NCBI GenBank assembly: GCA_031280435.1
Contig: JAITGS010000037.1
Location: 1-45,069, forward strand
Direction: 5' to 3'
DNA: 45,069 nt
Origin: Tannerellaceae bacterium
GTDB taxonomy: Bacteria; Bacteroidota; Bacteroidia; Bacteroidales; Tannerellaceae
This document shows, piece after piece, positions 296 through 44,986 of the stretch. The stretch's first letter is position 1; each line of letters opens with the position of its first letter. The notes under the pieces are model-generated. The model did no database searches. It saw nothing but the letters and a program-made list of their open reading frames with translations, and was not told the origin of the DNA. A program made the position numbers and the translations under genes.

Positions 296-408
296 CGATG
301 CGATATGGGTACGCCCACAATACCGGCGCAGACAATGCGATGTGATACGACCGCGCTCACAATACGGGCGCAGGCAATGCGATGTGATACGACGAAGCTC
401 ACAATGCG
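296..408. repeat. Short direct repeat, about 42-bp step (array A0)
   Basis: Directly after the permease stop, ATGCGATGTGATACGAC occurs at 335 and again at 377, a 42-bp step, with a poorer copy at about 298. The spacer between copies (CTCACAATACGGGCGCAG) is also repeated. The last copy runs straight into the palindromic element at 409. The step matches the other arrays of this window, but the dyad symmetry of the core is weak. Confidence 0.6.
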
Positions 409-535
409 GGTCATTCCCGCGAAGGCGGGAATCTCCGATCGAAAGTTGGGACGATTGTGCTTGTATCATTGGATGGGAAACAATCCAATCGTAAGCCTTT
501 TTCGATCGGAGATTCCCGCCTTCGCGGGAATGACC
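409..535. mobile_element. MITE-like palindromic element, copy 1 (dRS3-like ends)
   Basis: A 127-bp element has near-perfect terminal inverted repeats of about 35 bp (409-443 and 500-535). Each arm contains the smaller palindrome ATTCCC-N8-GGGAAT followed by TCTCCGATCG. A second copy with the same arms and a partly similar centre (both hold GGGACGA and TTGTATCAT) lies at 22075-22201. No transposase is encoded inside. The small size, the long inverted arms and two copies in 45 kb suggest a non-autonomous element. The inner palindrome fits the Neisseria dRS3 consensus ATTCCC-N8-GGGAAT. Confidence 0.75.
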
Positions 536-757
536 TATGGTGCATGCGAATGTTCTTACACATGGCAACAGCGGAACGAAATTTGCGGAAGCAGCGTTGT
601 CAATTTCCCAAAATCCGTTGTCGATATTACTTGTCGCACTAAAATTTTTTTTCGCCCTTTCAGGAAGGAGATGTGCCTCGGACGGAGATGGGACAAGCCT
701 CTCCCGAACGGCATAAACAGCGGACGGAGATGGGCCGAATATTCCGGCATCGAGCCC

Positions 758-1065
758 AATGTCGTGCGACATTTATCCCCTTCACAGGAAAACGAGCCCA
801 ATGTCGTGCGACATTTATCCCCTTCACAGGAAAACGAGCACAATGTCGTGCGACATTTGCCCCATTCCGGGAAAACGAACACAATGTCGTGCGACATTTA
901 TCCCCTTCACAGGAAAACGAGCACAATGTCGTGCGACATTTGCCCCATTCACAGGAAAACGAGCACAATGTCGTGCGACATTTGCCCCAATCCGGGAAAA
1001 CGAACACAATGTCGTGCGACATTCATCCCATTCATAGGAAAACGAAGCCAATGTCGCATGACATT
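758..1065. repeat. Palindromic tandem array A, 8 units, 41-42 bp step
   Basis: The 16-bp core AATGTCGTGCGACATT starts at 758, 800, 842, 883, 925, 967 and 1008; a variant (AATGTCGCATGACATT) starts at 1050. Steps are 42, 42, 41, 42, 42, 41 and 42. The arms AATGTCG/CGACATT are perfectly complementary around a 2-bp centre. The linkers come in two forms (a longer one with CCCCTTCACAGGAAAACGAG, a shorter one with CCCCATTCCGGGAAAACGAA); the shorter one accounts for the 41-bp steps. The array ends about 90 bp before the start of the permease at 1153. Long open frames on both strands here arise from stop-free repeats and are not genes. Confidence 0.95.
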
Positions 1066-1152
1066 TACCTCAATCCGGGGAAAATGGGGCCGTCCGGGTT
1101 CCGAACGAGGATTTTTATGTTTTGAATTACAGTAAACTCTAATGATAATAGT

Positions 1153-10423: not shown

Positions 10424-10567
10424 GTTTGTCGGATTTGAATTGTTCAAAAATAAAGCTTTCCCGGGAATATAGGAAATACAGCCGGCAAGAGGCGACAGTT
10501 ATAAGCTCTGAAGCCGGCTTGCCTCCAAAGCATTTCGGTTTGCTTCCCTGAGGTCGGGCCGGAGCCG

Positions 10568-11003
10568 TTTGAACGTTCAAACGGAGAACCCCCCGCTTTT
10601 CCCGAGGCTATTCTAAGGTTCAAACGGAGTGAATTCGTCTTTTTTGAAACCGATCTAAGGTTTAAAGGGGGCAAATCCGGCTTTCCTGAGGCAATTCTAA
10701 GGTTCGAACGGACTGAATCGGGGCTCCCGCAAGCAATTCTAACGTTCAAACGGGGCAAATCGGGCTTCCTGGAGGCAATTCTAAGGTTCGAACGGCCTCA
10801 GTAAGCCCGATTTTGCCCGATTTCAAGCTTAAAACGGCTTGCGAGCTTTCGATTTGGCCCAATTCTAAGGTTCAAACGGCTTCCGCGAGCTCAAATTCAC
10901 TCAATTCTAAGGTTAGAATTGCTTCCGGGAGGCTGATTCGGACCATTCTAACGTTAGAACGGCTTCCGGGAAGTCGGACGGAATCCGTTCTAACGTTCGA
11001 ACG
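10568..11003. repeat. Palindromic tandem array B, 11 units, 42-bp step
   Basis: Eleven cores start at 10571, 10614, 10656, 10698, 10740, 10782, 10824, 10866, 10908, 10949 and 10991 (steps 43, then 42 except one 41). Cores are versions of TTCTAACGTTAGAAC or TTTGAACGTTCAAAC, usually followed by GG. Units 1, 9 and 10 are near-perfect palindromes; others combine one left arm type with the other right arm type. Linkers are GC-rich and share segments such as GCAAATCGGGCT or GCTTCCGGGA. The array fills the gap between the ugd terminator and the TPR gene. Apart from it and the terminator I see nothing else here. Confidence 0.92.
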
Positions 11004-11040
11004 AAGTCGGCGATCCCTCGTCCGCCATCTTATACCCGAA

Positions 11041-12443: not shown

Positions 12444-13508
12444 TTACAGGAATATATTAATGATATAAAAGAATGTCATAGCCATTATGGCGCTGATGGG
12501 TATGGTCAGGATCCAGGCCACGAGCAGGTCTTTGGTGACGCCCCATCTAACGGCCGACAGCCTTTTGATTGCTCCCACGCCCATGATTGCTCCCGTGATG
12601 GTGTGGGTGGTGCTGACGGGAATCTTCACTATTTCGGTAAAGAACAAAGTGATGGCGCCGGCCGTTTCTGCTGCGACGCCTTCGAGCGATGTCACCTTGG
12701 TGATGCGCGATCCCATAGTCTTGATGATGCGCCAGCCGCCCGACATGGTTCCTAAGGCTATCATGGTGAAGCAGGCCAGCGGCACCCATGCCAGATTGTT
12801 TTTCTCGGCCATCTCTGAGGCTGTCGTCATGTGCATCCAGTCGGGCATGGAGGGATAGATGGCCGGATCGTTGGTGGCGGCAATAAGGGCGGCTCCGACT
12901 ATCCCCATAACCTTCTGCGAATCGTTCAGGCCGTGGCCTATGCTGAACAGGCCGGAGGATACCAGCTGAAGCTTCTTGAACCAGTTGTTGGCCTTGTAGG
13001 GATGAGTCTTGCGGCATATCCAGAAGATGAGCATCGTAAGCGAAGACGATACTATCATCCCCAATAGCGGAGCCAGAATGATGAAGGATGCTATCATAAT
13101 CACCCCTTTCGGCCCTTCCCAATGGATTACATCGGCATGGAAGGCGCTGGCCAGGGCTGCTCCCGCGAAGCCTCCTATCAAGGTGTGCGACGACGACGAG
13201 GGAATGCCGAACCACCACGTTATAAGATTCCAGGTTATGGCGGCCAGCAAGCCGGCCAGAATAACTTTGAGCGTTATAAACTCCTCGACGACGACCTTGG
13301 CCACCGTATTGGCTATCCCAAATTCTCCTATAATAAACTTGGCTATGAAAAATGCGGCGAAATTGAACATTGCCGCCCAGAGGACAGCCTGGAAAGGAGT
13401 GAGAACTTTGGTGGAGACAATGGTGGCGATGGAGTTGGCTGCGTCATGAAAACCGTTGATGTAATCAAAAATCAGCGCGAGTGCGATGATAGTTATCAGT
13501 AGTGTCAT
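12444..13508 (-). CDS. pit: Low-affinity inorganic phosphate transporter, PiT family
   Basis: A 354-residue inner-membrane permease of the PHO-4/PiT family. The family signature is visible twice, as expected from its inverted duplication: FDYINGFHDAANSIATIVSTK near residue 15, and GHGLNDSQKVMGI in the second half. About ten membrane helices are predicted. Proteins of this family carry metal-phosphate with protons or sodium. It lies 28 bp downstream of the DUF47 gene, a common arrangement in which the PhoU-like DUF47 protein controls the transporter. The gene is intact. Confidence 0.93.
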   Translation of the reverse strand: MTLLITIIALALIFDYINGFHDAANSIATIVSTKVLTPFQAVLWAAMFNFAAFFIAKFIIGEFGIANTVAKVVVEEFITLKVILAGLLAAITWNLITWWFGIPSSSSHTLIGGFAGAALASAFHADVIHWEGPKGVIMIASFIILAPLLGMIVSSSLTMLIFWICRKTHPYKANNWFKKLQLVSSGLFSIGHGLNDSQKVMGIVGAALIAATNDPAIYPSMPDWMHMTTASEMAEKNNLAWVPLACFTMIALGTMSGGWRIIKTMGSRITKVTSLEGVAAETAGAITLFFTEIVKIPVSTTHTITGAIMGVGAIKRLSAVRWGVTKDLLVAWILTIPISAIMAMTFFYIINIFL

Positions 13509-14244: not shown

Positions 14245-14410
14245 GTATGGGCTGATGCAATCCGCAGGGGCAAACCGTTTAGAAGAAGGACGGCGCCTCC
14301 GGGCTGAGCCCGACAGGGGCTATGCCTCCCAAATCCTCAGGAACAGGCAGAGGCATTTCAGCACTAAAACCCTATCGCCGGCATTGCAGAAGATTTACAC
14401 ATGTAAATGG

Positions 14411-14678
14411 GCTGCGATAATTATCGCGAGCCGGCAAACTCAATTCAATGGCTGCGATAATTATCGCGAGCCGGCAAACTCAATTCAATGGCTTCCGATA
14501 ATTATCGCGAGCCGGCAAACTCAATTCAATGGCTTCCGATAATTATCGCGAGCCATCAAACACGATTCAATGGCTTCCGATAATTATCGCGAGCCATCAA
14601 ACACGATTCAGTGGGCTGCGATAATTATCGCGAGCCATCAAACACGATTCAGTGGGCTGCGATAATTATCGCGAGCCA
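14411..14678. repeat. Palindromic tandem array C, 7 units, 41-bp step
   Basis: The perfect palindrome CGATAATTATCG is inside every unit; the GATA of successive units starts at 14416, 14456, 14497, 14538, 14579, 14620 and 14661 (one 40-bp step, then 41). Arms extend in many units to GGCT..AGCC. Linkers change in blocks along the array: units 1-3 carry GGCAAACTCAATTCAATGG, later ones ATCAAACACGATTCA. Array G at 38565 is the same family in inverse orientation. The array lies between the terminator of the giant surface protein gene and the DUF47 promoter. Confidence 0.95.
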
Positions 14679-14700
14679 TTGAATTCGATGCTCCCCTCAC

Positions 14701-14887: not shown

Positions 14888-17800
14888 TCACTTCACTGAA
14901 ATTTTTTCTACCTGGGTTTCGCTTCCAAGCATTGCCTTTAAGATGTACAAGCCGCCGGCTACCGGGATTCTCACTGTGCCGGACAGCTTGGACGAGCGGT
15001 ACACGGAGCGGCCGGAGGCATCGAATACATCGAGCGAGCTCACCGTTTCGCTTACCGAAACATTGATATATCCCGGCCCTGAGGTCACTTTAAGCAGTGA
15101 GCTTTTTACGTCCTCGGTCGCGGTCGGGCCGAAGCCTATGCCGCTGCCGGTGTATTTGAGGTATAGCTTGAAGCGGTCGTTCACTTCTATGGAACCGGAG
15201 CCGTGGGGCTTGATGAGGGTGAAGGTGTAGCTGTCGGAAGCGGAGGTGATGTCTACGCGCTTGTTCAGGGCCATGTCCATGAGGCTCACTTCGTGGCCGA
15301 AACTATGCAGCCCTTCGAAGCTCAAGCTGTACTCGCCCGGCTCCTCGGCTATGATGCCGAGGCTGACGGGGAGCATGTCCAAGGTGGAGCTGGCGTTGAT
15401 CACCAAGGGCGAGAGGTCTGCGGAGAAGGTGTAAAGCGAAAGGGGTTTTTCGTCATCTATTGTGTATGTAACAGCCGGCATGTCTATGTGATCCCGCTCG
15501 AAGTTGCTCGTTCCGGGCTCGTAGACCAAGGCCGCCGAGGCTTGCTTGTCTGCGCCCGAAAGGGTGACGTTCAGCACTCCGCCGGACTGCACGCCGGCCC
15601 GGAGCGTATAGGAATCGACGGGCTTGGTGGTTGTCCAGGCTCGCGACATCTTCAGCGTTCCCAGAGTGCTGTTTACATTCCGTTTTGCCACGAAGAAGGA
15701 TTGCAGCGGAGCTATATATCGGGGAGTAGCTACACGGGGGATGCCGATGTTGGCTACTATGCGGTTGTTCTGATTGCCTCCATTCGTGGTGGCAAAGGCA
15801 TGAACCTGCACGTCGTTGCCCACCTCGCCGTCCCAGATGTAGTATCCGGTCTGAATGGCTGTGGTATTGCTGAAGTTACCAAAGAAGGCGTTCATGTCGA
15901 GATAGGCCATATAGGGGTTCACCACCTGCACGAGCGTGGAGCCGATTATGCCGCCGGAAACAGGCATATCGTATGGATCCGGCGTCTGATGGCTGTCGGT
16001 GATGAAGCGGCCGGAGTTTGTTCGGTCGAGCGAGAGCACAGGGCCGCCGGCAGGATCTGTATATCCGGTTTCGCTGCGCGGGAAGCGCAGGAGGCTGTCG
16101 CGGGTGACGCTTGTGCTCATAACCTTCAGGTTGAAGGCCCTGCCGAGCGGGAGCGCTACGTTAGGATTGGCGAAGGTGGCCGTGAATCGGTTGGGTACGG
16201 CTGTGCCGTGACTCGGATCGGGATTGTTAATCTGAAAGAAGTTCATGAAGGCATCGCCAACGAGCGTACTCCCCTTCCTGAAATGATAGTCGCCGGAGTA
16301 CATCTGCTGCAATGGAGCCGACCACATCACGAAGCGGTTCATCTCGGCCGGCTTCATCTTGAGCTCCACTGAGGCCGCCGTATACTTCAGCACATGCGGA
16401 TTCTTCAGCATCGCCCGGTCGAGCATACGGATATTATGGCACCTGGCGGTATCCGTTCCGAGCTCCGGGAAGTTGTCTACGCTCGAAGAGATAGTCACAT
16501 CCGTGCAGAGGCCGGGGAGGAAGGTAGCCGGCGATTCGCCGACCGATCGTACCACAACCCAGTTGGCCGGGTTATTCCAGTCGCTGCTGATGTGGCCCGT
16601 CCAGCGCATCTGCTCGCCGGCCGGGGAGGCATGGATGGTGAAGGAGCCGAAGGGGAAGCCGCCCGCTGCGTTCCATGGCAATGCTGCTTCGCCTACGTTC
16701 TTGGGCTGTACAAAGCACGACCAGTTGCCTAATAGTACGCCGGTAGTGTAGGTGACGGTATTCAGCGCGAGCACTGCATCCGGCAAACTTGCGAACCAGT
16801 CGAAGGTGGTGCCCGAAGGAAGGGCTTTCAGCTTAGCTGTGTAGGCCTGGCCCGTGCAAGCGGTTGCTCCGTTCAAGTCCTCCAATATATATATGTATAC
16901 GGTGGCGGGTAAGGGGGTGCGACCGTCGGGCATGCGGATGCGATATACGAAGGAGTCGATGGGATTAACCGTCAGACTGTCCGTCCCCTCGTTAACATAG
17001 ATAATCTTTGATGCAGCGCCGGAGCCTGTGCCGACGAGCTTGCCGTTCCTTGGCTGCAGTATGACGGAATCAATGAGGCTGAAAGCCGGCAGGCCTGCTA
17101 TCCATCCTGAAGGAAAGAGGTCGTTGCCCAGTACGTTTATCTCTGTGCTGAAGAACTTCTGCACCGTTTGGGTATCGTCGTCCAGGCCGCTATCCCTCAG
17201 CTTCCTCAGGCTCACGCCGAAGCGGTTGGTGGTGTAGTCACATTCCTGTTGCTCCCATGCGAGGGTGCTGCTGTTGCGGTTCACATAAACGATTATGCTG
17301 TCGGTGGCCGCGAGGTCAAGGGCGGCAATGCCGGTTAGCTTGATATGCTGCATTATTGAGCTGCCTGCTTCAAGCGGCGAAGTGATGGTCTGGTTTTCCT
17401 TCAGGGTTTCCACTCCGCCCTTCTTGGTATAGACATCTACCCTTATGGGCGAGCGGAGCTGGGTTTCGCCTATGTTGGCAATGCTGATGTCGAGCGCTAT
17501 GGAATCGCCGAGGCCATAGTATTCGTAGTCCACACCCGATATGGCGGCGTTGGGCAGCCGCCAGTAGGGTTTGCCTTGCATGTTGAGATAGGTTTGCTGC
17601 TGAAAGAAGTTATTGAAGGGCTGGGTAGCAGGCGGGCCGGAAAACTCGTATGCCGAGTTGAGCTGGTGCGAAGGTACCGTAAGGTCTTCGTTAATGTTCA
17701 CCGAGTTGTACATGTACTGGTTCCATACCTTGCGGGCGGGGGCCCAGGGAGTGCCGTTCGACTTCAGGATTTGCAGCTTCCAGTTTCCGCAAGCAACTAT

Positions 17801-20800
17801 CTCCGCCGCACCGTCGCCGTCCACATCGGCCACTACCGGTACCTGCGACTGAGTAACCTGGCTAAATGCGAAAGACGGTGTGAGCTCTGCTTTGGTTATG
17901 CCATCGAAGATTCTTACGGCGCTCTGGTCGGTGAGCAGTAATTCCAGTGAGCCGTCGAGATTGAAGTCGAATGCTGAGGCCGTGTTTGAATAGGAATCCT
18001 CATCGGGCTGGAAACCCCAGGTATAGGTGAAATGCAGGGCTGACGGATCAACTTCAAAAAGCAGGAACTGATTATTATCGGTACTCCGGTATCCAGTCCC
18101 ACCGTTGCCCAGCATATAGATTCCAAAGCATTGAATCAAAACATCGAGCTTACCGTTATTGTTGAGGTCTGTAATCAAAGGAAAGCTCTTTCCGGGGTAG
18201 TCTGTAGATATCTCGACGGCCGGACCGGTCACATTGTTATACACGTCGTGTATGTACATGTAAACGTTTGCATAAAGCGCAGGACTTTTTCTTACGGAGA
18301 TGAGGATGTCGAGATGGCCGTCGTGGTTGAAGTCGGCAACTTGCGGATGGCCGTCGGCACCGGGCGAGAAATTGGGAGACATAAAGGTTCGCAGCTCGGT
18401 TGCGTAGTTTAGCGCGGCATTGCCGACGTTGTTGCGGTCTATCTCTATTCCGTATATGCGGTTGCCGAGTATCAGTTCGAGATTGGACTGTTCGTCGCCC
18501 CACACATTGGCCGCAACAGGCGAAGATAACTTACGTAGAGCGGGGTCGCTCCCCATGTGACTAATCGCCCCGTATGTGGAGCCCGTATACGTTCCGTCGC
18601 CTACTATGAGTAGCAAGGCGCCTGATTCGGCATCGTAAATCCTGTTTCGTGCATACACTTCCGGATAGCCGTCGTGGTTGAAGTCGGCAAAGCCCGGATG
18701 GAGGTTGGCGTCAAGGCGAGCAAGGCTGTTCAGGTCTGTCCTGTCCGTGTATGGCTCCGAAATCCATAGGGGAATTGCCGGGTTGATTGCGTCGGACGAT
18801 GCAAGGGTATAGGCATGCAGCCTGTAGTCGCTGCATGCAACCACTATGAGCCCTTGTCCGCTCGGGGTCCGTACAAGCCCGAAAGGATTCATCTGAAAAG
18901 CACTCATATATAATTCGTTGCCGGGGCCGGTATCGCTGGTGCCTGTACCGTTGGACAGCTTTATGGTTGCCTTGACGTTTGAAAGATCGCGGCCGTCGTA
19001 AACTAATATGGTTCTGACGCGGAGTTCGGCCAGATACCCTTGAGTACCGTCCAAGGCGGACGCACCCTCTAAGCCGAAAACCACTATTTCCGGAAAGCCG
19101 TCGCCATCGAGATCGCCCACAAGGGGAGAAATGTTGTGCGCTACGGTCTCACCCTCGGTTGTCTTGTCAACTTTGATGCTCCATGTAGTCGGCAAGGCTT
19201 CGTCGGAACAAAACGGGTAGTGAATATTATCCGTCAGAAACTCACAGATTATATACACCTTGCCGCTCTTGGTGAGGCCGCCGCAAGTGACGTCATACAC
19301 AATGGTATCGCGACCTATATATCCTGCAGTGGGCGTGTAGGTTATTTTCAGGCCATTCCTGACGGCAACGCCATGCTTGGGACTGCCGCCGGAGGCTATA
19401 TCCATGACGACGGCGCCTACGCCCACGCTTGGGCAGCTCGTGAAGTCGTTGGCCAGAACATCTATCTCGACAGAGGACTTATAATATGGAATTCCCACCC
19501 AGTCGTCATTCACAATGAAGGGAGCGTCGAGAATAATGTCGCGGTCGGGATGATTGCAGGCGTCCTGAGCATCAGAGCCGCTGCCGGCGTCGTTCAGGCG
19601 AACGGCAATGTTGGCGGAGCCCCACTGGGAGCGGTAATTAGGGATGCGCATAGTGATAGCGGCCGTGGAATCGGGCCTGATTACGGCAGCAGCATGCGTA
19701 TCCGTATACTTGATGCTGTTCCCAACCGCGTCTTTGTAAGCCGTCACACTCAGCGGAAGAGAATAAGCCTCGCCCGCGTTACTGACCCTGAAGTTTAGCG
19801 TCATCACATCGAGATAAGCATTGTATGAAAACGATGCCGAGCCCGGCACATGCCTCAAATCCGGCAAAGGCCACAAGGGCACGCCCGAAACGTTCAAGAG
19901 CGTTTGCTGCTGGAAGAAGTTATTGAAAGGCCTGAGGCTTCCCAAAGTTCCGGCCGGGCCGAACATGGTCTGCGGAATACTCAAGTCGTTATTGACGTTC
20001 ACCGAATGATACATTCCCTGATTCCATACCTTGCGGGCCGGAGCCCAGCGCCCGCTTTCCGTCGATGCGTTTAATACCGTCATCCTGCCGTCATTAATGC
20101 CTCCCGAAATAAAAACAATGTCGGCCGAGCCGTCGGCGTTGACGTCGGCAACAATGGGGAACTGCATCACGGTGTGACACGAACCGAAGCTTAAGAGGAG
20201 TTCCTTAGTCGAACCGTCGAATATCCTCAAACCGGAGAGTGTCAGGAAGAGGACTTCCATAGGGCCGCTCTGGTCGAGGTTGAAGGCCGTTGGGGCAACG
20301 GAGACTACGTCTTCGCCGGCCAAGGTGAATGTCGACATCGACTCCAAAGTGAGGTCAAGCCCACCGACTGCACATTCGTAAATACTGATCCTGTAAGCGG
20401 TTGCTCCCAGCTCCAGAACGATTTCCAGGTTGCCGTCGCCGTCTATATCGGCAATCAGCGGAATAGCCTTGCCCACAAGATTCATCGGTATGGTACGCAA
20501 AGCGCCTCTTGCGCCCGTGGAAGGCTTGTAGATATACATATATGTGTTGCCTGACGTAGTCTGATCCCTTTTGGTAACAAGGACTTCAAGCTCGCCGTCG
20601 CCGTCGAAGTCGGCCACCTGCGTGTGCCCGTCGGCCACGGCTCCTGTCGGAGGAGTAACGCTGGCGGAGCTGTTCCTGGTTATAGTGCTGGTGCCGGACG
20701 GCACAATGTTCACGTCGTACACCTGGTTGCCGAGTATCAGCTCCAGCGGGCTGCTGCTGTTGCCTACAACATTTGCCGCAATGGGCGCCGAGAGCATACT

Positions 20801-21526
20801 GCCGCTATATATATAGTTGGCGTCTGATATATAGGCATAAGACGAAGCCGTGTTTGTTCCGCCGCTTGCGGTGGCGAGCAGAGCTCCCGTGGCGGCATTG
20901 AATATCTTGTTGCGGACGTATATCTCCGGCGTGCCGTCGTGGTTGAAGTCGGCAAAGCCGATGTTGACGTCCAGGTCACGGCGCTTGTCGTGGGTGTCGC
21001 CGCTAACGTCGGAAAAGGGAGCCGTCGACGTCCATACGCAATATTGCTGCGCCGGATCGCCGTTCACAATGTCGTAGGCCCGCAGCTTGTAATCGGAGCA
21101 GGCAACCACAATCAGCCTGGCGGCGCCAACCTTCACAAGCCCGTAAGGCACGGCCCCGAAAGCCTGCACATAGATGCCGCCGGCGCTAACATCGCCCGAA
21201 AGTGGAACCGACAGTACAGGCGTGGTTACATCCCGGCCGTCGTATATAAGCATTGTGCGGACGCGAGGCGATATGGTGGAAGAGCCGCCGTCGAGGTTCT
21301 CCGCCCCTCCGTCGAGGCTCCATGCCACGATCTCGGGGACGCCGTCGCCGGTGAGGTCGCCCACAAGCGGCTGCACATGGCTGGCAACCCGGTTGCTACT
21401 CGACTGCGAAAGCGTTTGCAGGCCCCAGCTCGAGATGCCCGGAGCCGTGCCGGCACAATAAGGATCTATAACGTTATCGGGCAGGCTCTGCCCTTGCACC
21501 ATTAAAGGCAGCAGACAAATCGCCAA
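14888..21526 (-). CDS. Giant FG-GAP/VCBS-type surface protein with T9SS sorting tail
   Basis: An open frame of about 2212 residues. It contains many calcium-loop FG-GAP-like repeats (for example GDLTGDGVPEIV, ADFNHDGTPEIY, ADIDGDGNLEIV) arranged as two homologous blocks of roughly 650-700 residues (from about 25 and about 775). Cadherin-like linker segments follow each block (NDDWVGIPYYKSSVEIDVLANDF is one). The last 75 residues end DVFDASGRSVYR...GGLYILKAML...EKISVK, the pattern of a type A T9SS sorting domain, so the protein is probably secreted across the outer membrane and anchored at the surface. The only in-frame start is a TTG at 21526 giving a truncated signal peptide (AICLLPLMVQGQ). 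The natural N-terminus seems to lie upstream, beyond a G9 tract, in another frame. Confidence 0.85.
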   Translation of the reverse strand: MAICLLPLMVQGQSLPDNVIDPYCAGTAPGISSWGLQTLSQSSSNRVASHVQPLVGDLTGDGVPEIVAWSLDGGAENLDGGSSTISPRVRTMLIYDGRDVTTPVLSVPLSGDVSAGGIYVQAFGAVPYGLVKVGAARLIVVACSDYKLRAYDIVNGDPAQQYCVWTSTAPFSDVSGDTHDKRRDLDVNIGFADFNHDGTPEIYVRNKIFNAATGALLATASGGTNTASSYAYISDANYIYSGSMLSAPIAANVVGNSSSPLELILGNQVYDVNIVPSGTSTITRNSSASVTPPTGAVADGHTQVADFDGDGELEVLVTKRDQTTSGNTYMYIYKPSTGARGALRTIPMNLVGKAIPLIADIDGDGNLEIVLELGATAYRISIYECAVGGLDLTLESMSTFTLAGEDVVSVAPTAFNLDQSGPMEVLFLTLSGLRIFDGSTKELLLSFGSCHTVMQFPIVADVNADGSADIVFISGGINDGRMTVLNASTESGRWAPARKVWNQGMYHSVNVNNDLSIPQTMFGPAGTLGSLRPFNNFFQQQTLLNVSGVPLWPLPDLRHVPGSASFSYNAYLDVMTLNFRVSNAGEAYSLPLSVTAYKDAVGNSIKYTDTHAAAVIRPDSTAAITMRIPNYRSQWGSANIAVRLNDAGSGSDAQDACNHPDRDIILDAPFIVNDDWVGIPYYKSSVEIDVLANDFTSCPSVGVGAVVMDIASGGSPKHGVAVRNGLKITYTPTAGYIGRDTIVYDVTCGGLTKSGKVYIICEFLTDNIHYPFCSDEALPTTWSIKVDKTTEGETVAHNISPLVGDLDGDGFPEIVVFGLEGASALDGTQGYLAELRVRTILVYDGRDLSNVKATIKLSNGTGTSDTGPGNELYMSAFQMNPFGLVRTPSGQGLIVVACSDYRLHAYTLASSDAINPAIPLWISEPYTDRTDLNSLARLDANLHPGFADFNHDGYPEVYARNRIYDAESGALLLIVGDGTYTGSTYGAISHMGSDPALRKLSSPVAANVWGDEQSNLELILGNRIYGIEIDRNNVGNAALNYATELRTFMSPNFSPGADGHPQVADFNHDGHLDILISVRKSPALYANVYMYIHDVYNNVTGPAVEISTDYPGKSFPLITDLNNNGKLDVLIQCFGIYMLGNGGTGYRSTDNNQFLLFEVDPSALHFTYTWGFQPDEDSYSNTASAFDFNLDGSLELLLTDQSAVRIFDGITKAELTPSFAFSQVTQSQVPVVADVDGDGAAEIVACGNWKLQILKSNGTPWAPARKVWNQYMYNSVNINEDLTVPSHQLNSAYEFSGPPATQPFNNFFQQQTYLNMQGKPYWRLPNAAISGVDYEYYGLGDSIALDISIANIGETQLRSPIRVDVYTKKGGVETLKENQTITSPLEAGSSIMQHIKLTGIAALDLAATDSIIVYVNRNSSTLAWEQQECDYTTNRFGVSLRKLRDSGLDDDTQTVQKFFSTEINVLGNDLFPSGWIAGLPAFSLIDSVILQPRNGKLVGTGSGAASKIIYVNEGTDSLTVNPIDSFVYRIRMPDGRTPLPATVYIYILEDLNGATACTGQAYTAKLKALPSGTTFDWFASLPDAVLALNTVTYTTGVLLGNWSCFVQPKNVGEAALPWNAAGGFPFGSFTIHASPAGEQMRWTGHISSDWNNPANWVVVRSVGESPATFLPGLCTDVTISSSVDNFPELGTDTARCHNIRMLDRAMLKNPHVLKYTAASVELKMKPAEMNRFVMWSAPLQQMYSGDYHFRKGSTLVGDAFMNFFQINNPDPSHGTAVPNRFTATFANPNVALPLGRAFNLKVMSTSVTRDSLLRFPRSETGYTDPAGGPVLSLDRTNSGRFITDSHQTPDPYDMPVSGGIIGSTLVQVVNPYMAYLDMNAFFGNFSNTTAIQTGYYIWDGEVGNDVQVHAFATTNGGNQNNRIVANIGIPRVATPRYIAPLQSFFVAKRNVNSTLGTLKMSRAWTTTKPVDSYTLRAGVQSGGVLNVTLSGADKQASAALVYEPGTSNFERDHIDMPAVTYTIDDEKPLSLYTFSADLSPLVINASSTLDMLPVSLGIIAEEPGEYSLSFEGLHSFGHEVSLMDMALNKRVDITSASDSYTFTLIKPHGSGSIEVNDRFKLYLKYTGSGIGFGPTATEDVKSSLLKVTSGPGYINVSVSETVSSLDVFDASGRSVYRSSKLSGTVRIPVAGGLYILKAMLGSETQVEKISVK

Positions 21527-21653: not shown

Positions 21654-22013
21654 TTGAATTTAAACATTAATCGTGTTTTTTGTTCATTAAATTGTCGCCG
21701 CAAATATCGGCTTCCTCCAATCACATTCGCAATGGTCAAAATTTGAGACCCCGGCAATGAAAATCAAAAAATTTGGATTTTCATTGGCCGATTTCGCATT
21801 TTTAGCATGTTGTAGGCCCACAAAAAAGTATCAGTCAATTTCTAAATTGATTGGAAGTTCTCCGTTTTTGGCCCCGCATTAATACGCATTAAGTCCGAAA
21901 CAGACCCGCGAAAGCAAGTCCGCCGCCTTTTTTGGGGGCTATTCCGCTTGGGATATTTGCGATAGCGAGATGCAAAAAAGGAATTACGCCTGCCCAAATA
22001 ATGTGCCAAAAAG

Positions 22014-22040
22014 GTAGAGACGGATGCATCGCGTCTCTAC
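22014..22040. repeat. Isolated perfect hairpin
   Basis: GTAGAGACG (22014-22022) and CGTCTCTAC (22032-22040) form a 9-bp stem with a 9-nt loop. There is no T-run on either side, so it is not an obvious terminator; it may be a REP-like sequence. The stretch 21654-22013 before it is AT-rich and shows no gene. Confidence 0.5.
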
Positions 22041-22074
22041 GCACAACGTGTCAAAAGCCTTCACGCTCGAACGA

Positions 22075-22201
22075 TGGGTCATTCCCGCGAAGGCGGGAAT
22101 CTCCGATCGAAAAACGGGACGAATGTAGTTGTATCATATAAAAACACATACAATCGTCCCAGCTTTCGATCGGAGATTCCCGCCTTCGCGGGAATGACCC
22201 A
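22075..22201. mobile_element. MITE-like palindromic element, copy 2
   Basis: The arms TGGGTCATTCCCGCGAAG (and on through TCTCCGATCG) are perfect inverted repeats of about 37 bp at both ends. The centre resembles copy 1 at 409-535 (shared GGGACGA and TTGTATCAT) and is itself partly palindromic. No coding capacity. Array D starts within 35 bp of its right end. Confidence 0.75.
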
Positions 22202-22235
22202 TTTGGGCAGGCGAAGCCCTTCGCCCGAAAAAAAT

Positions 22236-22515
22236 ATCCGTCACGCAGCTTGCGGGGAGCTTCGGTTAAAAAAATTATCCGTCTCGCAGCTTGCGGGGAG
22301 CTTCGGTTAAAAAAATTATCCGTCACGCTGGCTGCGACGAGCTTCGGTTAAAAAAATTATCCGTCCCGCAAGTTGCGGGGAGCTTCGGTTAAAAAAAATA
22401 TCCGTCTCGCAGCTTGCGGGGAGCTTCGGTAACAAAAATTATCTGTCCCGCTGGCTGCGGGGAGCTTCGGTTAAAAAAATTATCCGTCCCGCTGGCTGCA
22501 CGGAGCTTCGGTTAA
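22236..22515. repeat. Palindromic tandem array D, 7 units, 41-bp step
   Basis: Units begin with ATCCGTC (one ATCTGTC) at 22236, 22277, 22318, 22359, 22400, 22441 and 22482, exactly 41 bp apart. Each runs CCGTCTCGCAGCTTGCGGGG, then AGCTTCGGTTA and an A-rich run. The inner CCGCA-GCT-TGCGG type palindrome varies (CAGCTTG, CTGGCTG, CAAGTTG) around a constant frame. Array F at 36012 is the same family, inverted. The array lies just downstream of the HhH barrel gene that ends at 22563. Confidence 0.95.
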
Positions 22516-22562
22516 ATAATTATGCTTTTGATTCAGAGCCCCCTCGAGGATATGAACCCCCC

Positions 22563-25425: not shown

Positions 25426-25744
25426 ATATATAATAATGAGTGGTTAAGGGTTTGAATTAAAAGCCCGCAAAAATATAGCCTTGAGCTTATAAAACCAAAT
25501 GTATGTGGGGAAGCGGGTAGGGGGAGGCCGTGACCTGATGCCTGTTTTGGAGATTTGAAGTTCTGTATTGGAATTATGTTTGCGCAATATTCTTTTTGTG
25601 TGATTCAACCGATATAACATCCGGCATAGCATTATTCTCAGAGAATAGGAAGCTGTGATAGAAACATTCATGGAGCAAAAAGACAGCAAAGCGGGGTAAG
25701 GAATGACGTTTTATTCGCGATTCAAGAAGAAAACATCTAAAAAG

Positions 25745-25773
25745 TTGGAAACTCAAAATATTCTTTATCTTTG
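25745..25773 (+). promoter_or_regulatory. Strong Bacteroidota promoter upstream of array E and the DUF6261 gene
   Basis: TTG at 25745-25747 and TATCTTTG at 25766-25773 are 18 bp apart, close to the consensus. The nearest large plus-strand gene is DUF6261 at 26493, so the transcript would have an approximately 710-nt leader containing the whole of array E. Confidence 0.65.
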
Positions 25774-25797
25774 CCCACATTAAAATATCTAATAGAA

Positions 25798-25917
25798 TGA
25801 AGTTCCAAACAAGTACATCTTATACATATTATATAGTACATCGTTGCCGGCCATTCGGCAGTGGGACTTCGCATTTTCACCCCCCCATATTTACATTTCT
25901 CTTGGCGACTGCGTAGA
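25798..25917 (+). CDS. Possible 39-aa leader peptide
   Basis: An ATG 25 bp after the promoter opens a 39-codon frame (starting MKFQTSTSYTYYIVHRC, ending FTFLLATA). It is the first frame of the leader that carries array E. There is no homology I recognise and no clear ribosome-binding site; it may be chance. Confidence 0.2.
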
Positions 25918-26002
25918 CGATCCCTTTTTATTTTTCGGTACAATAATTCAGCCTTTACGAACAAGTTCGGATGGGCTACTTTTTTGCTTTTGCGCAGCCT
26001 GC

Positions 26003-26420
26003 GCAAGTCTGATCAGGTTCGCGGGCAGACTTGCGCGCGCCGCGCAAGTCTGTCGGGATTTTCCGTGGAACTTGCGCACGCCGCGCAAGTCTGTCGGGAT
26101 TTTCCGGGAAACTTGCGCGCGCCGCGCAAGTCTGTCGGGATTTGTCGGCAAACTTGCGCGCGCCGCGCAAGTCTGTCGGGATTTGTCGGGAAACTTGCGC
26201 GCGTCGCGCAAGTCTGTCGGGATTTTCCGGGAAACTTGCGAGAGCTGCGCAAGTCTGTCGGGATTTGTCGGGAAACTTGCGAGAGCTGCGCAAGTCTGTC
26301 GGGATTTGTCGGGAAACTTGCGCGCGCCGCGCAAGTCTGTCGGGATTTGTCGGGAAACTTGCGAGAGCTGCGCAAGTCTGTCGGGATTTGCCGGGAAACT
26401 TGCGCACGCCGCGCAAGTTT
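26003..26420. repeat. Palindromic tandem array E, 11 units, exact 41-bp step
   Basis: GCAAGTCTG (GCAAGTTTG in the last) starts at 26003, 26044, 26085, 26126, 26167, 26208, 26249, 26290, 26331, 26372 and 26413, always 41 bp apart. Each core has arms ACTTGCGCG and CGCGCAAGT around a 3-nt centre. Some units have a changed left arm (CTTGCGAGAGC), shortening the stem to about seven pairs. The linker TCTGTCGGGATTTGTCGGGA is nearly constant. The repeats contain no stop codon in most frames, so overlapping spurious frames of 140-200 codons appear on both strands. Confidence 0.97.
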
Positions 26421-32316: not shown

Positions 32317-32317
32317 G

Positions 32318-35700: not shown

Positions 35701-35804
35701 AGTTTGGCAAGTAGCCTCCGATGAAGATTGCGTAAGCACTCCCTTTCTGCTTCCCGCATATTATATTTCATCCCTTTCGGACAGGCGCCGGAGGGCTTTT
35801 TTTG

Positions 35805-36010
35805 GTGTGCCGGGCATGACATCACTTGGAGGTATCCACTACGGGGGTAGATAGTTGCCAACCCTTAGCCGAACAGCAAGGCTGTCCTTCGCGAGGGGGA
35901 ATCCGAAAGATCGGCAAGAGTGATGTTTCTCGAAAGGATAGCTGCAAACAACATCTAAAGGAGTCAGGCGCGGAACCGCCGTGTACCGCAGGGTGGTGGT
36001 GGGAGGTCTC
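35805..36010 (+). mobile_element. Internally deleted group II intron-like remnant, copy 1
   Basis: The segment begins GTGTGCCGGGCATGACATC, matching the GUGYG 5' end of group II introns, directly after a hairpin-plus-T-run (GGAGGGCTTTTTTTG). Near its right end GGAACCGCCGTGTACCGC then GGTGGTGGTGGGAGG resembles a domain V/VI 3' end in which the distal part of the domain V stem is lost. The intervening intron body and any reverse transcriptase are absent. The first 80 bp are repeated almost exactly at 36258, with the copies' identity starting precisely at the GTGTG. Confidence 0.5.
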
Positions 36011-36011
36011 T

Positions 36012-36255
36012 AACCGTAGCTCCCCGCAGTCAGCGGGACGGATATTTTTTTTAACCGAAGCTTCCCGCTGTCAGCAGGACGGATAATTTTTTTAACCGAA
36101 GCTCCCCGCAGCCTGCGGGACAGATAATTTTTTTAACCGAAGCTCCCCGCAGTCAGCGGGACGGATAATTTTTTTAACCGAAGCTCCCCGCAGCCGGCGG
36201 GACGGATATTTTTTTTAACCGAAGCTCCCCGCAGCCGGCGGGGAGCTTCGGTTAA
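36012..36255. repeat. Palindromic tandem array F, 6 units, exact 41-bp step
   Basis: AACCG starts at 36012, 36053, 36094, 36135, 36176 and 36217, 41 bp apart. Units run AACCGAAGCTCCCCGCAG, a variable centre, GCGGGACGGATAATTT and a T-run; this is array D inverted. The last unit is a perfect hairpin: TTAACCGAAGCTCCCCGC at 36215 and its exact complement ending at 36255, with a 5-nt loop. The array lies between two intron-like remnants. Confidence 0.95.
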
Positions 36256-36257
36256 CG

Positions 36258-36480
36258 GTGTGCCGGGCATGACATCACTTGGAGGTATCCACTACGGGGG
36301 TAGATAGTTGCCAACCCTTAGCCGAGCAGCAAGGCTGCGTCTTCGCGAGTGGGAATCCGAAAGCAGCTGTAAGCAAAGTCCTGAACTGAAGAACACGAAC
36401 AACATCAGGTACAAGCCTAAGGTTGATTATGAAGGCGAAAGGACTAATCTTGTAAGCATAGTCCGGGATTTGGAGGAGCG
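36258..36480 (+). mobile_element. Group II intron-like 5' fragment, copy 2
   Basis: It repeats the first 105 bp or so of copy 1 (35805) from GTGTGCC onward, with few differences, then continues with AACACGAACAACATCAGG and similar domain I-like sequence that copy 1 lacks. It starts 2 bp after the perfect terminal hairpin of array F. The right end is not defined; it is lost before or within the 3' end of the gene at 36498. Confidence 0.45.
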
Positions 36481-36497: not shown

Positions 36498-38234
36498 TTA
36501 TCTTACAACAATCTTTTGGGAATGGCTTGCTGCCGTCACTATATAGAAACCGCTTGGTGCGAAAACACTTTTTTGTCCCATTACATGGACTTGCGCATAT
36601 AGTTTCCCCGTAGGCGTATATATATCTACCGTTTGGGGAATGGCTGTCGCTATGTGAATGAAATTTGAAGTTGTTGTCACCTTCATTTCGTTTTTCAGAA
36701 CGGGAAGGGTTGCACTGCCTCCGGACAATTGCCAGGCTCCTATGGTGATGCTGCCTTCACGGCGAGGCTGATTCAACTGGTCGGTGACGACGGGAGTGAT
36801 GTTTTCAAGGTAGGCAGGATTTGTTTCCTCATTTCCATTCGGCAAAAACCATTTGCCCTCTTCCTTATAATATACGTCACTCAATATTCCGGCCAATACT
36901 CCGGTTCGATCGGCAGGACCGCCTGATTTTACTTTCAGCACATGGAGGTTGTCATCCGGGCTAGGGTTAGGGTTGCCGAATACTTCTTCGACGGTAGACA
37001 CAGTACTGTGGTAATTCCTTATGAAGTCGGATTGCACGTCATGGTAGATGCTGTAAAGCATTGATAATGTAAAGCCGGTAGAGAAAACATCGAAGGCATC
37101 TCTTCCTTTGTTGCCCGTCAGGATGCTGTTTATCAGCGTAACCCTGCCTCCGTAGATGCCTCCTCCGCTACGCGCCGCTTCATTGGCCGTAAAGCTGCAA
37201 TGGATGGCTTCACAATGAGCATAGATCCCCGAATAAACGCCTCCTCCTTCTTCCGCCTTGTTGCCGTAAAATGTAGAGTTGACGAGCTTTACGGAGCCGG
37301 CGGAGATGGCGCCGCCTTGGATAGCCTTGTTGTTTGCAAAGAGGCTGTTGTAAACTCGGAAGCCGGTGGTGGCGGAAGAAATGGCTCCACCGGAGGCATA
37401 ATTTCCGTTAGCCGAATCCATACCGACTTCATTGTCCCAAAACTTGCAATTTTCAATATGCAAGGTTGCGTGCTGTCCATGCGTTGTATTTATAGCTCCG
37501 CCACGACCGATAGCTTTGTTGTTCACAAAGTCGGTGTTACGTACCGCATCGGTATAGCCTCCGAAATTGGTATCAAGGACATCAAAATGTATGGCACCTC
37601 CGCTACCCTTGCTTTCATTTTCGGAAAAGAGGCAGTGATCTATGACTATTCTATTGTGGGTATAAATGGCTCCACCCTCGTTGGATTCGGATTCCCCGTC
37701 GGCTCTGTTCCGGGTAAATGTAGAATGGCGTATTCCGGTAGCAGCTCTTCCCCAAATGGCTCCTCCCTTGGTTGCCCTGTTGTTTGAAAATGTACAGTGA
37801 TCGACGATAAGCGTGTCGGCTACATTAGTTCGTTCATCACGGATTGCTCCTCCTTCATTGCCATTACCGCCGGATAAAGTCAGGTTGGCAAATGTAACCG
37901 AGTATTCGGGTGTTCCGTATTCAGGCCTTGCAATGCTAAACATGCTGCGCTTTATGCCGGGAGCGCCGGCCGTCCCCGCCTCAATGGTCACGCCGCCGGC
38001 TTCTCCGTCAATAACAAGCGAACCTGCAATCGCCGGCAAAGCTTCCGTCAATACTATATGCTTGACGTTGCGGAACAGAATTGTGTCCGGAGCCGGCGTG
38101 GCATTGGCCGTTTGAATGGCTTCGCGCAAGCTTCCTGCCCCGGCATTGGCGGTAGATGTTACCCTAATCTTTTCGGCATGAACGGCAAGACTGCCTGTGA
38201 TGCAGATAAAAATATAAAAAGCTCTGAGTTTCAT
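36498..38234 (-). CDS. Right-handed beta-helix surface protein with T9SS sorting tail
   Basis: A 578-residue secreted protein. A signal peptide (MKLRAFYIFICITGSLAVHA) is followed by VTSTANAGAGSLREAIQTANA, the typical start of CSLREA/choice-of-anchor Q parallel beta-helix proteins, and many coils of the type HCTFSNNRATKGGAI, HCLFSENESKGSGGAI and NSTFYGNKAEEGGGVY between about 90 and 400. The C-terminal 80 residues (VDIYTPTGKLYAQ...GFYIVTAASHSQKIVVR) form a T9SS type A-like sorting domain. The helix may bind or cleave a polysaccharide, or act in adhesion; no catalytic set is evident. It is convergent with the cyd operon. Confidence 0.85.
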   Translation of the reverse strand: MKLRAFYIFICITGSLAVHAEKIRVTSTANAGAGSLREAIQTANATPAPDTILFRNVKHIVLTEALPAIAGSLVIDGEAGGVTIEAGTAGAPGIKRSMFSIARPEYGTPEYSVTFANLTLSGGNGNEGGAIRDERTNVADTLIVDHCTFSNNRATKGGAIWGRAATGIRHSTFTRNRADGESESNEGGAIYTHNRIVIDHCLFSENESKGSGGAIHFDVLDTNFGGYTDAVRNTDFVNNKAIGRGGAINTTHGQHATLHIENCKFWDNEVGMDSANGNYASGGAISSATTGFRVYNSLFANNKAIQGGAISAGSVKLVNSTFYGNKAEEGGGVYSGIYAHCEAIHCSFTANEAARSGGGIYGGRVTLINSILTGNKGRDAFDVFSTGFTLSMLYSIYHDVQSDFIRNYHSTVSTVEEVFGNPNPSPDDNLHVLKVKSGGPADRTGVLAGILSDVYYKEEGKWFLPNGNEETNPAYLENITPVVTDQLNQPRREGSITIGAWQLSGGSATLPVLKNEMKVTTTSNFIHIATAIPQTVDIYTPTGKLYAQVHVMGQKSVFAPSGFYIVTAASHSQKIVVR

Positions 38235-38564
38235 GATTCATTTTGTATTAAGTGGTTGAACAATACATTCGCTAATATGGATAATTGTAAAGCTCTATTA
38301 ATTGCTGCCGCGGCTTTGCTCCGTTCACAGCGTAATTTGCTGTTAACATATATATGCCGTTTGCGGCAGCAGCAGTACATTCGGGCCATGCAGGCGTCAC
38401 GGCCGGTACAATCCCGTTTGATTCGTTAATTTCCATGATTTTAATTGCTTTAAGTGTTTAATAAACCATAGCAAATATAATGAAAGTAATCACTGCAGCC
38501 GATTCCCCCGACACACATACCGGCAGCGCGGAAATACATTTGCGAGCCATTCACACGTGTCAAC

Positions 38565-38670
38565 GGCTCGCGATAAATATCGGAAGCCACTGAATTGAGT
38601 TTAACGGCTCGCGATAAATATCGGAAGCCACTGAATTGAGTTTAATGGCTCGCGATAAATTCCGCGAGCC
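38565..38670. repeat. Palindromic tandem array G, 3 units, 41-bp step
   Basis: GGCTCGCGATAAAT starts at 38565, 38606 and 38647. Each core runs to GGAAGCC or GCGAGCC, an imperfect palindrome; linkers are ACTGAATTGAGTTTAA-like. On the opposite strand the units match array C (GGCTTCCGATAATTATCG). It lies between divergent genes, about 35 bp before the promoter at 38706. The remainder of 38235-38560 shows no gene. Confidence 0.9.
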
Positions 38671-38705
38671 ATTGAATAAAGTTTGATGCGATTCTCCCCG
38701 GCCCC

Positions 38706-43552: not shown

Positions 43553-43592
43553 AAGGGGAGCGTCACGGCAAGCGGCGCTCCCCTTCCCGTTT
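43553..43592 (+). terminator. Terminator of the rhamnosidase gene
   Basis: AAGGGGAGCG (43553-43562) pairs with CGCTCCCCTT (43576-43585), followed by CCCGTTT. Confidence 0.75.
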
Positions 43593-43602
43593 CATCCCCG
43601 CC

Positions 43603-43647
43603 GGCCCACCGATAAACTCATTTGAGCCGGGGAAAACGATTTGGAGC
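43603..43647. repeat. Single unit of the array H family
   Basis: ACCGATAAACTCATTTGAG followed by GGGGAAAACGATTTGGAG matches a unit of array H (44858-44986). It lies alone after the rhamnosidase terminator, about 1.2 kb before the array. The rest of 43648-43840 shows no gene. Confidence 0.75.
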
Positions 43648-43840
43648 TAAGCCCGGGCATAGTCGATGAGGGCATAGCTGCATTGAACGGTCAACCCTAT
43701 AAATCTCCCGTTCCTTCAAATTATTTCGGAGCTTTTGGACAACAATAATATAGTACAAACCGTTCATGCTCTGTGATGCGCCCTCTTACGACTTGACAAG
43801 AAGGCTGTCATTGTAACAAAACAGTTTTGAATTTTAGATT

Positions 43841-44800
43841 ATGAATAAACAAGAAATGAAAAAGCTTTTCCTCGTACTGCTCGTTGCAATCGGTACGATA
43901 ACAGGCTGCATGGAGAATAATCGTCAGCCCGTTCTTCCTGAGGTATCCGATTCGTCAATCAATTTCATTGTGGCGAATGATTTGGGGCGCAACGGCTACT
44001 ACGAACAGAAAACGGTTGCCCATCTGATGGGATACGTAGCCGAGAACATGGACATAGAAATGGTCGCTGCGGCCGGCGATATTCATCATTTTGGAGGGGT
44101 AGCAAGCGTTAGTGATCCTTTGTGGATGACCAATTACGAGTTGATCTACGACCACCCCGATTTGATGATCGACTGGAATGCCATTTGCGGAAATCACGAG
44201 TACAGAGGCAATACGCAGGCCATGCTGGATTATTCAACAATCAGTCGTCGCTGGCAGATGCCGGCTAAGTATTACACCAAAGTAATCACTTCCTACGACG
44301 GCGCCACATGTCGACTCGTCTTTATAGACACCGCTCCGCTGATTGACAAATACCGTAAAGATTCTATTACTTATCCCGACGCCTGCAAGGAAGATGCATC
44401 AGCACAGCTTCGATGGATTGATTCCGTACTGGTTCATGCGGCGGAGAAGTGGAAAATCGTGATTGGTCATCATCCTGCATACGCCGACACAAAGAAAAAC
44501 GAAGACGAAAGGAGGGATATGCAACAGCGTTTGGCACCTCTGCTGGAAAAACACGGCGTCGATGTATATTTCTGCGGACATATCCACAACTTTCAGCACA
44601 TTCGTCCCGCATCATCTAAAGTGAATTATGTTGTCAACTCCTCAGGCTCGCTGGCGCGTAAGGTGAGCGCCATCGACGGAACAATATTTTGCAGCTCCGA
44701 CGCAGGATTTACGGTTTGCTCGGTAGATAATCAATCCTTCAAATTTTTCTTCATCAACCATAAGGGCGAAACCATATATAGTTATGCTGTTGTCAAATGA
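43841..44800 (+). CDS. Calcineurin-like metallophosphatase lipoprotein (purple acid phosphatase type)
   Basis: A 319-residue lipoprotein (signal ending TG-C23). Metal-binding motifs are complete: D47 (ANDLGRNG), GD80-I-H82 (GDIHHFGG), GN118H119E (CGNHEY), H in IGHHPAY and GHIHNF near residues 207-251. The order and spacing resemble tartrate-resistant/ACP5-type phosphatases. The ATG at 43841 is followed by an in-frame ATG at 43856; either leaves a working signal. The product probably releases phosphate from organic phosphate in the periplasm. An alternative is a phosphodiesterase of the same superfamily. Confidence 0.9.
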   Translation: MNKQEMKKLFLVLLVAIGTITGCMENNRQPVLPEVSDSSINFIVANDLGRNGYYEQKTVAHLMGYVAENMDIEMVAAAGDIHHFGGVASVSDPLWMTNYELIYDHPDLMIDWNAICGNHEYRGNTQAMLDYSTISRRWQMPAKYYTKVITSYDGATCRLVFIDTAPLIDKYRKDSITYPDACKEDASAQLRWIDSVLVHAAEKWKIVIGHHPAYADTKKNEDERRDMQQRLAPLLEKHGVDVYFCGHIHNFQHIRPASSKVNYVVNSSGSLARKVSAIDGTIFCSSDAGFTVCSVDNQSFKFFFINHKGETIYSYAVVK

Positions 44801-44857
44801 GCAACAAAGCGATTCATATTGATTCATTCATTTGGGGAAATCTTGAATTGTTTTCTT

Positions 44858-44986
44858 CGGTGGCTCCAAATCGTTTTTTGGAGCCACCGATAAACTCAGT
44901 TGAGCCCGAAAAAACGATTTGGGCCCACCGATAAACTCAGTTGAGCCCGGAAAAACGATTTGGAGCCACCGATAAACTAGGTTGAG
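44858..44986. repeat. Palindromic tandem array H, 3 units, 41-bp step, with capping hairpin
   Basis: CCACCGATAAACT starts at 44884, 44925 and 44966 (steps 41, 41); units contain ACTCAGTTGAG and a CGATTTGG linker. The left end is a perfect hairpin: CGGTGGCTCCAAA (44858-44870) and TTTGGAGCCACCG (44877-44889) around a 6-nt loop, so the array begins with an inverted half-unit. The rest to 45069 has one degenerate relative (GAGCTTATCGGTG) and no gene. Confidence 0.9.

Follow-up and report, generated by a model that had tools for sequence, protein, structure and literature searches.

Intergenic minisatellite arrays of near-constant period and variable sequence in a Tannerellaceae genome

Several gaps between the genes of a 45,069-nucleotide contig from a Tannerellaceae bacterium hold tandem arrays that differ in sequence and step at nearly the same length, raising the question of what fixes a repeat period when the repeated sequence itself is free. 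This stretch, hereafter the window, is contig C39 of a 143-contig, 3.06 Mb genome that is 83% complete. The host is presumably a gut bacterium related to Tannerella, with MAG sample names pointing to termite guts. Its closest named relative as judged by UDP-glucose dehydrogenase is the Tannerellaceae MAG Pc512_bin80 (89%).

Arrays of the window and their periods across the genome

TRF returned ten intervals of period 41-42 in the window, corresponding to nine arrays once two adjacent intervals (10575-10795 and 10808-10891) had been merged (Table 1), one more than the eight of the first-pass annotation. They represent seven unit families, the array at 38562 joining the 14406 family and that at 36011 the 22228 family as reverse complements, roughly in line with the at least six unrelated families proposed earlier. 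Array C stands out in that its linkers occur in two orientations, with a minus left arm and a plus right arm. The family of array F has four further arrays and one short match in the genome, and units similar by eye to those of array I recur elsewhere with a period of 40; in the genome survey array I was entered at its smaller TRF period, 22. Array G is flanked by two repeated segments, one of which overlaps an Rfam group II intron match. A phage origin was considered for array D and dropped, as no match was found.

Table 1. Repeat features of the window (positions on the 45,069-nucleotide contig)
Feature	Position	Strand	Description
Array A	311..405	.	2.3 units of 42 bp (TRF)
Array B	751..1067	.	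7.6 units of 41-42 bp, AATGTCGTGCGACATT dyad
Array C	about 10565..11004	.	11 palindromes of 20 bp, steps 41-43 bp, mostly 42
Array D	14406..14679	.	6.7 units of 41 bp, CGATAATTATCG dyad
Array E	22228..22523	.	7.3 units of 41 bp
Leader beside array F	25530..25989	.	common to C12 copy (from 25530), partly C52 (from 25761)
Array F	25990..26418	.	10.5 units of 41 bp, CTTGCGC/GCGCAAG dyad
Array G	36011..36242	.	5.7 units of 41 bp; reverse complement of family E
Array H	38562..38688	.	about 3 units of 41 bp; reverse complement of family D (by eye)
Array I	44877..44986	.	2.7 units of 41 bp (TRF)

A survey of 680,539 bp, representing 22% of the genome, recovered 143 tandem arrays (TRF, score 60, period 18 or more, overlapping rows being resolved in favour of the smaller period), 111 with a period of 39-42 and 21 with a period of 21-23. 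By single lengths, 39, 40, 41 and 42 bp account for 1, 14, 60 and 36 arrays, respectively, 21, 22 and 23 bp for 10, 4 and 7, and other lengths for 11. Exact 8-mers in 333,672 bp of intergenic DNA recur at 19.5, 37.5 and 17.2 per 1000 at lags 40, 41 and 42, and at 4.0 and 6.4 per 1000 at lags 21 and 23. Further peaks are present solely at multiples of 40-42, 21 and 23, with recurrence staying below 0.6 at lags 24-39 and 43-62, except at 46 (twice 23), and with a median over lags of 0.05. The weaker recurrence in called coding sequence (4.2 at lag 41) stems, by our reading, from ORFs made of repeats. Three 50-kb stretches of E. coli K-12 (150 kb), serving as control, contained no array, and the excess of periods 39-42 is not chance. 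Arrays make up 4.1% of sequence as measured over 288,603 bp. Tandem-repeat and 8-mer recurrence scans of the genome sample thereby show a sharp excess at 40-42 over many families, close to the 41-42 named in the first-pass annotation; the observation is confirmed and reaches well beyond the window. The single period of 41-42 claimed earlier holds as the dominant one here, with a second class at 21-23 beside it.

Periods of three turns (about 31) and five turns (about 52) are represented by none of the 143 arrays of the genome sample, the sole three-turn example being one 31-bp array in the congener G005. As both lengths are nearly missing, any whole number of turns cannot be the rule, which argues for a quantum of two turns or a dimer-sized footprint rather than for the matching of helix faces as such. 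We also considered the 42-bp units as doubled 21-mers, and rejected this, the similarity at a half-period shift (0.288) being no higher than at other shifts (0.294).

Placement was assessed using gene calls from a custom script that scores ORFs by hexamers. Of the gaps measuring 100-300, 300-500 and 500-3000 bp, arrays occupy 5 of 70, 13 of 34 and 61 of 78, respectively, ORFs consisting of at least 30% array having been excluded beforehand. When gaps of at least 300 bp are split by gene orientation, arrays occur in 35 of 53 for tandem, 28 of 40 for divergent and 11 of 19 for convergent genes, with no clear preference. No hexamer-scored gene overlaps an array of the window, so the earlier statement that none lies in a gene stands there. 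For the genome it holds for most arrays, as 9 of 135 arrays of period 20-45 lie mostly inside such an ORF and 4 of 135 partly. Counting any open frame of at least 160 codons, 33 of 135 lie mostly inside; open frames running through repeats are expected. Confinement to intergenic DNA is thus full in the window and applies to most arrays elsewhere.

Turnover between related species

The two period classes are also found in relatives. In 12 other species of the genus (756,645 bp) they account for 62 of 72 arrays, 47 at 20-24 and 15 at 40-44, the remainder being 3 at 25-39, none at 45-62, 4 at 15-19 and 3 above 62. At least one array in the two classes was present in each of 13 sampled congeners, and in most of them 20-24 outnumbers 40-44, the reverse of this genome. 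Outside the genus arrays are rarer, with 16 in 358,877 bp, of which 8 fall into the two classes, and among 80 other Bacteroidales loci (941,024 bp) the classes hold 30 of 50 arrays, or 11 of 17 at period 15 or more and a stricter score. Array F has weak matches in 2 of 39 relatives, and the C palindrome, allowing up to two mismatches, is absent from all 17 congeners searched; unit sequences are little shared among relatives.

The closest congener, G009, is 89% identical in RNase R (others 75% or less) and allows comparison gap by gap; its contigs were partly picked for their repeat matches, and its array density is biased for that reason. Array A and the adjoining MITE are missing in G009, where both flanks align. 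The gap of array B, again with both flanks aligning, instead houses an unrelated 42-bp array, and the genes adjoining arrays C and E are accompanied by unrelated arrays of 41 and 42 bp, respectively, with one flank comparable in each case. Alignment of these G009 arrays with those of the window is no better than for shuffled sequence (p 0.11, 0.81 and 0.26). No array was found in G009 beside the gene adjoining array D, the D family being present there at other places, and beside the gene adjoining array F just a weak 24-bp TRF interval is detected.

Another 20 kb (L016) shows a similar picture. A C-type array here faces other 41-bp arrays by the same flanking genes in G009, an 8-unit 23-bp array is missing in G009, and a 41-bp array at 12701 has no counterpart there. 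One 41-bp array is common to both species, with 8.3 units here and 6.1 in G009 and with all steps 41. Its units are 97% identical within this species, 81% within G009 and 79% between the two; homogenisation is clear here and slight in G009, and the length is constant. At this one shared site compared, the arrays show what defines minisatellites, tandem units of 10-100 bp that differ in copy number. Bacterial minisatellites or VNTRs in general consist of tandem units whose copy number varies between species; the present ones are unlike them in that the period is quantised across unrelated sequences. Aggregated, arrays differ in presence, sequence and copy number between the sister species at the sites compared, and the earlier claim of divergence between arrays with homogenisation inside them is supported in the genome sample, across the genus and against the sister species.

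Unit families, dyads and the C family

Unit sequences of the genome sample fall into 32 clusters. Units across clusters are nevertheless more alike than shuffled units (mean score 8.25 versus 7.05), and CGCAAG is present in 25 of 111 units versus 1.9 in shuffles. Because both values exceed the shuffles, the families, presented as unrelated by the first-pass annotation, are not wholly independent of each other genome-wide. No single recognition sequence is common to all families. In a shuffle test on consensus units, with 41-mers from intergenic DNA away from arrays as controls, dyads reached p<0.05 in 41 of 111 arrays versus 5 of 111 controls, and p<0.01 in 16 of 111 versus 1 of 111, leaving 70 of 111 arrays without a significant dyad; a smaller set gave 22 of 58 at p<0.05. 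Palindromes are hence a real trait, with an excess over controls that is confined to a minority, rather than the one dyad core per unit described earlier. Reversed copies lie near or within 15 of 111 arrays, 7 of these 15 belonging to the C family.

The C family comprises 12 arrays with 106 cores, retained from 19 candidate chains, of which seven (L013, L023, L200 17418, L208, L209, L211 and L218) were set aside as other families or chance. Its unit joins a palindrome of 20 bp (consensus CCATTCTAACGTTAGAACGG) to a linker of 22 bp (consensus CTTCCGGGAGGCCGAATTCAGC), and of 94 steps 78 measure 42, 12 measure 41 and two measure 43, with 40 and 46 once each. Information content is 23.7 bits for the 20 bp of core, compared with 12.6 bits for the 22 bp of linker. 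Within each half-site, TT and AA are 92-99% conserved, at positions that were also used in picking cores, and conservation at positions 3-18 is inflated since cores were picked by similarity there. No covariation was detected across the dyad, save for one marginal outer pair (38/2000 shuffles), and selection for an RNA hairpin in this family was rejected on this ground; the cores instead match two half-sites that are read separately, not a hairpin or selected stem. Every C-type match with at most one mismatch has, among the matches listed, another copy within about 45 bp, and the 15 neighbouring proteins are unrelated and lack a common theme, which together speak against an ordinary regulon of C-type sites.

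The linkers show a mean pairwise identity of 0.47 at nearly constant length. For those of exactly 22 bp (78 of 94), a model with two orientations reaches a log likelihood of -1712 versus -1909 for one orientation, and orientation switches 14 times in 66 neighbours versus 32.8 in shuffles. Nine of 10 loci, two of them copies of each other, run from a minus block into a plus block; two of the nine have plus linkers ahead, and some have later flips. Since the other strand reads the same order, this represents a consistent polarity. A fold-back mirror origin of the arms was also weighed and set aside, the signal being weak (mirrored linkers 0.53, non-mirrored 0.45, same-orientation neighbours 0.57). 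Unique spacers of the CRISPR type are lacking, as the C linkers fit one 22-bp consensus in two orientations and the other arrays of the window repeat the whole unit.

Parsimony on the same exactly-22-bp linkers counts 371 substitutions. Non-coding DNA of the sister species shows 48 gaps to 466 substitutions (deduplicated ratio 0.103), a ratio that predicts 38 indels in the linkers versus the 16 off-length steps found (Poisson P 4e-5). The difference loses significance if the indel ratio is set to 0.05 (P 0.33), and the evidence for a constraint on linker length is therefore moderate. Homogenisation is not what keeps the length, as the linkers have diverged to 47% identity with length kept.

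Origin of the period and relation to known elements

It can fairly be inferred that a common process fixes the length. For its nature we tentatively favour, as quite possible though short of probable, that these are fast-turnover intergenic minisatellites with a period kept close to two or four helical turns, serving as phased protein-binding platforms. The arrays form a genome-wide population, can be copied as blocks, as one case shows, and have lengths that place their period at about two helical turns (21-23 bp) or four (40-44 bp). Each array would present evenly phased sites to a dimeric or architectural DNA-binding protein, most likely the reason for the held period: spacing would be constrained, leaving most of the sequence free to drift and allowing entire arrays to supplant one another. 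In the C family such a pattern is visible, with conserved and independent half-sites and diverged linkers of near-constant length. A protein reading the pitch would, we infer, be what maintains it. The interpretation is weakened in several ways: matching of helix faces alone would not lead one to expect that three- and five-turn periods are nearly missing, 40 and 23 bp are not exact multiples of 10.5, the 42-bp units are not doubled 21-mers, the C-type sites form no ordinary regulon, the linker-length constraint loses significance at the lower indel ratio, and no sequence is common to all families, many arrays being devoid of a significant dyad.

The main rival to a protein platform is a generator with a built-in length, a mutational process such as slippage, template switching or rolling-circle copying that alone sets the period at about 21 or 41-42 bp, leaving functionless arrays that persist through long gaps and weak selection. 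We regard this as a serious possibility that we would not call probable. Sequences differ freely between arrays and species, the arrays lack gene context or a functional theme, and higher-order TRF periods of 82, 83, 123 and 125 within window arrays, as well as the near-identical units here of the array whose G009 counterpart has diverged units, point to slippage or unequal exchange. Against it, the C family keeps its half-sites and linker length despite the divergence of its linkers, and dyads exceed those of control DNA.

The first-pass annotation knew of no described element that fits, which is too strong. According to PMC4596501, P. gingivalis strain W83 harbours tandem direct repeats of 41, 23 and 22 nt; PgRS/MITE464 carries 41-nt repeats, two MITE types have roughly 10-20 copies with almost identical terminal repeats, and BrickBuilt is a 23-nt minisatellite within a MITE, one family at 19 places covering 0.44% of the genome. 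The present arrays resemble these P. gingivalis repeats in the order of bacteria, the period classes and the tandem layout, the 23- and 41-nt unit sequences being mutually unrelated as well, but differ in their many families of unit, in numbering 143 within the 22% of the genome sampled and in that no such terminal repeats were found at their flanks. They likewise resemble BrickBuilt in their imperfect tandem units and stem-loop potential and, for part of the arrays, in being intergenic or having a leader or tail, but 40-42 bp dominates over the 23-nt unit (111 of 143 at 39-42, 7 at 23) and the share of sequence is 4.1% as measured over 288,603 bp. A shared leader or tail of the BrickBuilt type is seen in part of the F family only, the leader being common to the window, C12 and C52 and the tail to C12 and C115.

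The Nelson 2003 genome paper is reportedly the cited source for those P. gingivalis tandem repeats. Among open-licence papers we found no literature on a sequence-independent period of 41-42 bp. The kind is thus already known from P. gingivalis, while for its generality over unrelated sequences, its density, the replacement at the same place and the two-armed C family no precedent was found.

We consider it unlikely that BrickBuilt- or PgRS-like MITEs carry these minisatellites and that an IS transposase spreads them through the terminal repeats. Besides the P. gingivalis MITEs with 23- and 41-nt tandem repeats (PMC4596501) and the leader or tail of some F-family copies, one C-type block copy is congruent with such spread: between the copies on C34 and C91, identity is 94% across 410 bp, with flanks that do not match. 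As the identity stops at the flanks, arrays can be duplicated whole, whether through transposition or through recombination of one array with another. This pair is the one instance of block copying. A MITE-like element (408-550 and 22009-22215) lies within 300 bp of an array at 21 of 37 places, one of these being an 18-bp array, yet was rejected as the carrier considering the 143 arrays of the sample. A search of 680 kb for two 12-base ends with up to 2 mismatches gave 31 near matches to the printed P. gingivalis terminal repeats near arrays versus 6.3 in shuffled controls. However, 24 of the 31 lie inside or touch units, and with only 7 outside, IS5-like terminal inverted repeats as in BrickBuilt were rejected as flanks. 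Matches on both sides occur for L013 16509-16740 only, facing opposite to the printed ends. The 41-bp period agrees with PgRS/MITE464, whose terminal repeat GAGACTGTTGCA was not found in the 680 kb as a flanking pair in the printed orientation. Moreover, 32 unit clusters would require many elements.

An RNA role, with strings of hairpins terminating or stabilising transcripts, appears very improbable: dyads occur in a significant minority of units, but the C dyads show no covariation beyond the marginal pair, no Rfam match falls within the window arrays, and convergent gaps show no excess (11/19 versus 35/53 tandem and 28/40 divergent). Least credible of all, and already disfavoured, is an origin as palindrome clusters of the REP/BIME type produced by a RAYT (Y1) transposase; BIMEs (PMC2817692) are palindromes in regular tandem clusters with two orientations, and the present arrays are partly like them, in the regularly spaced palindromes with two orientations of the C family and in species specificity, but unlike them in their many families, the 40-42 bp step and the missing RAYT, as a search of 18 genus genomes for Y1_Tnp (PF01797) found it in six and gave no match in this genome (83% complete), in G009 (60% complete) or in the array-dense G001 and G012.

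Returning to arrays as phased platforms for a protein, a common machinery, as the first-pass annotation had interpreted the period, is supported in part, by the shared period, the divergence and the homogenisation; its single class, universal dyads and lack of precedent do not hold. A further step, which we consider rather doubtful, would be a spacing code without a sequence code, in which interchangeable arrays in the gaps between genes would have a two- or four-turn pitch, read by an architectural protein, as their only conserved property, and unrelated arrays would replace each other between sister species with the pitch preserved. For these arrays, spacing may matter more than sequence.

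In bacteria, the unit length of tandem repeats is generally regarded as arbitrary. Here it is the length that is conserved and the sequence that varies freely, across 32 unit clusters, the sampled congeners and, by precedent, P. gingivalis. Whether a protein reads a non-coding pitch or a step of replication or recombination has a built-in length is a question testable in a culturable Bacteroidales; to our knowledge, either answer would be new.

Elements near the arrays

A MITE-like element with long inverted ends was recovered at 37 places in the 680 kb sampled, lying no more than 300 bp from a tandem array in 21 of these, and many matches to it, with identity of up to 96%, were also found in the sister species G009. 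Near matches to the IS5-type 12-base ends printed for P. gingivalis MITEs (PMC4596501; up to two mismatches allowed) flank one array on both sides (region 16375-16740 of L013, a sampled stretch outside the window), in the orientation opposite to the printed ends.

Features of the window (empty cell, no strand given)
Feature	Position	Strand
MITE-like element, ~150 bp, long inverted ends (GGTCATTCCCGCGAAGGCGGGAATCTCCGATCGAAA)	408-550 and 22009-22215	
2212-codon ORF, longest in the window	14888-21526	-
Repeated segments flanking array G on both sides	35804-35910 and 36257-36430	
578-aa protein, Chlamydia PMP-type repeats (PF02415)	36498-38234	-

Contig ends and array counts

Some contigs of the same genome end in or close to arrays (C5, 17246-17689; C12, near 77316). 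Thus, arrays may represent break points of short-read assemblies in these species, and too few of them may have been counted.

Array context and variation between sister species

Beside array G (5.7 units of 41 bp), Rfam detects group II intron D1-D4-3 at window 36339-36430 (41.9 bits), and the array may be placed between two intron fragments. Elsewhere in the genome, a 23-bp array of eight units (7053-7236 of L016, a sampled 20-kb stretch) is absent from the same gap of G009, with both flanks being alignable.
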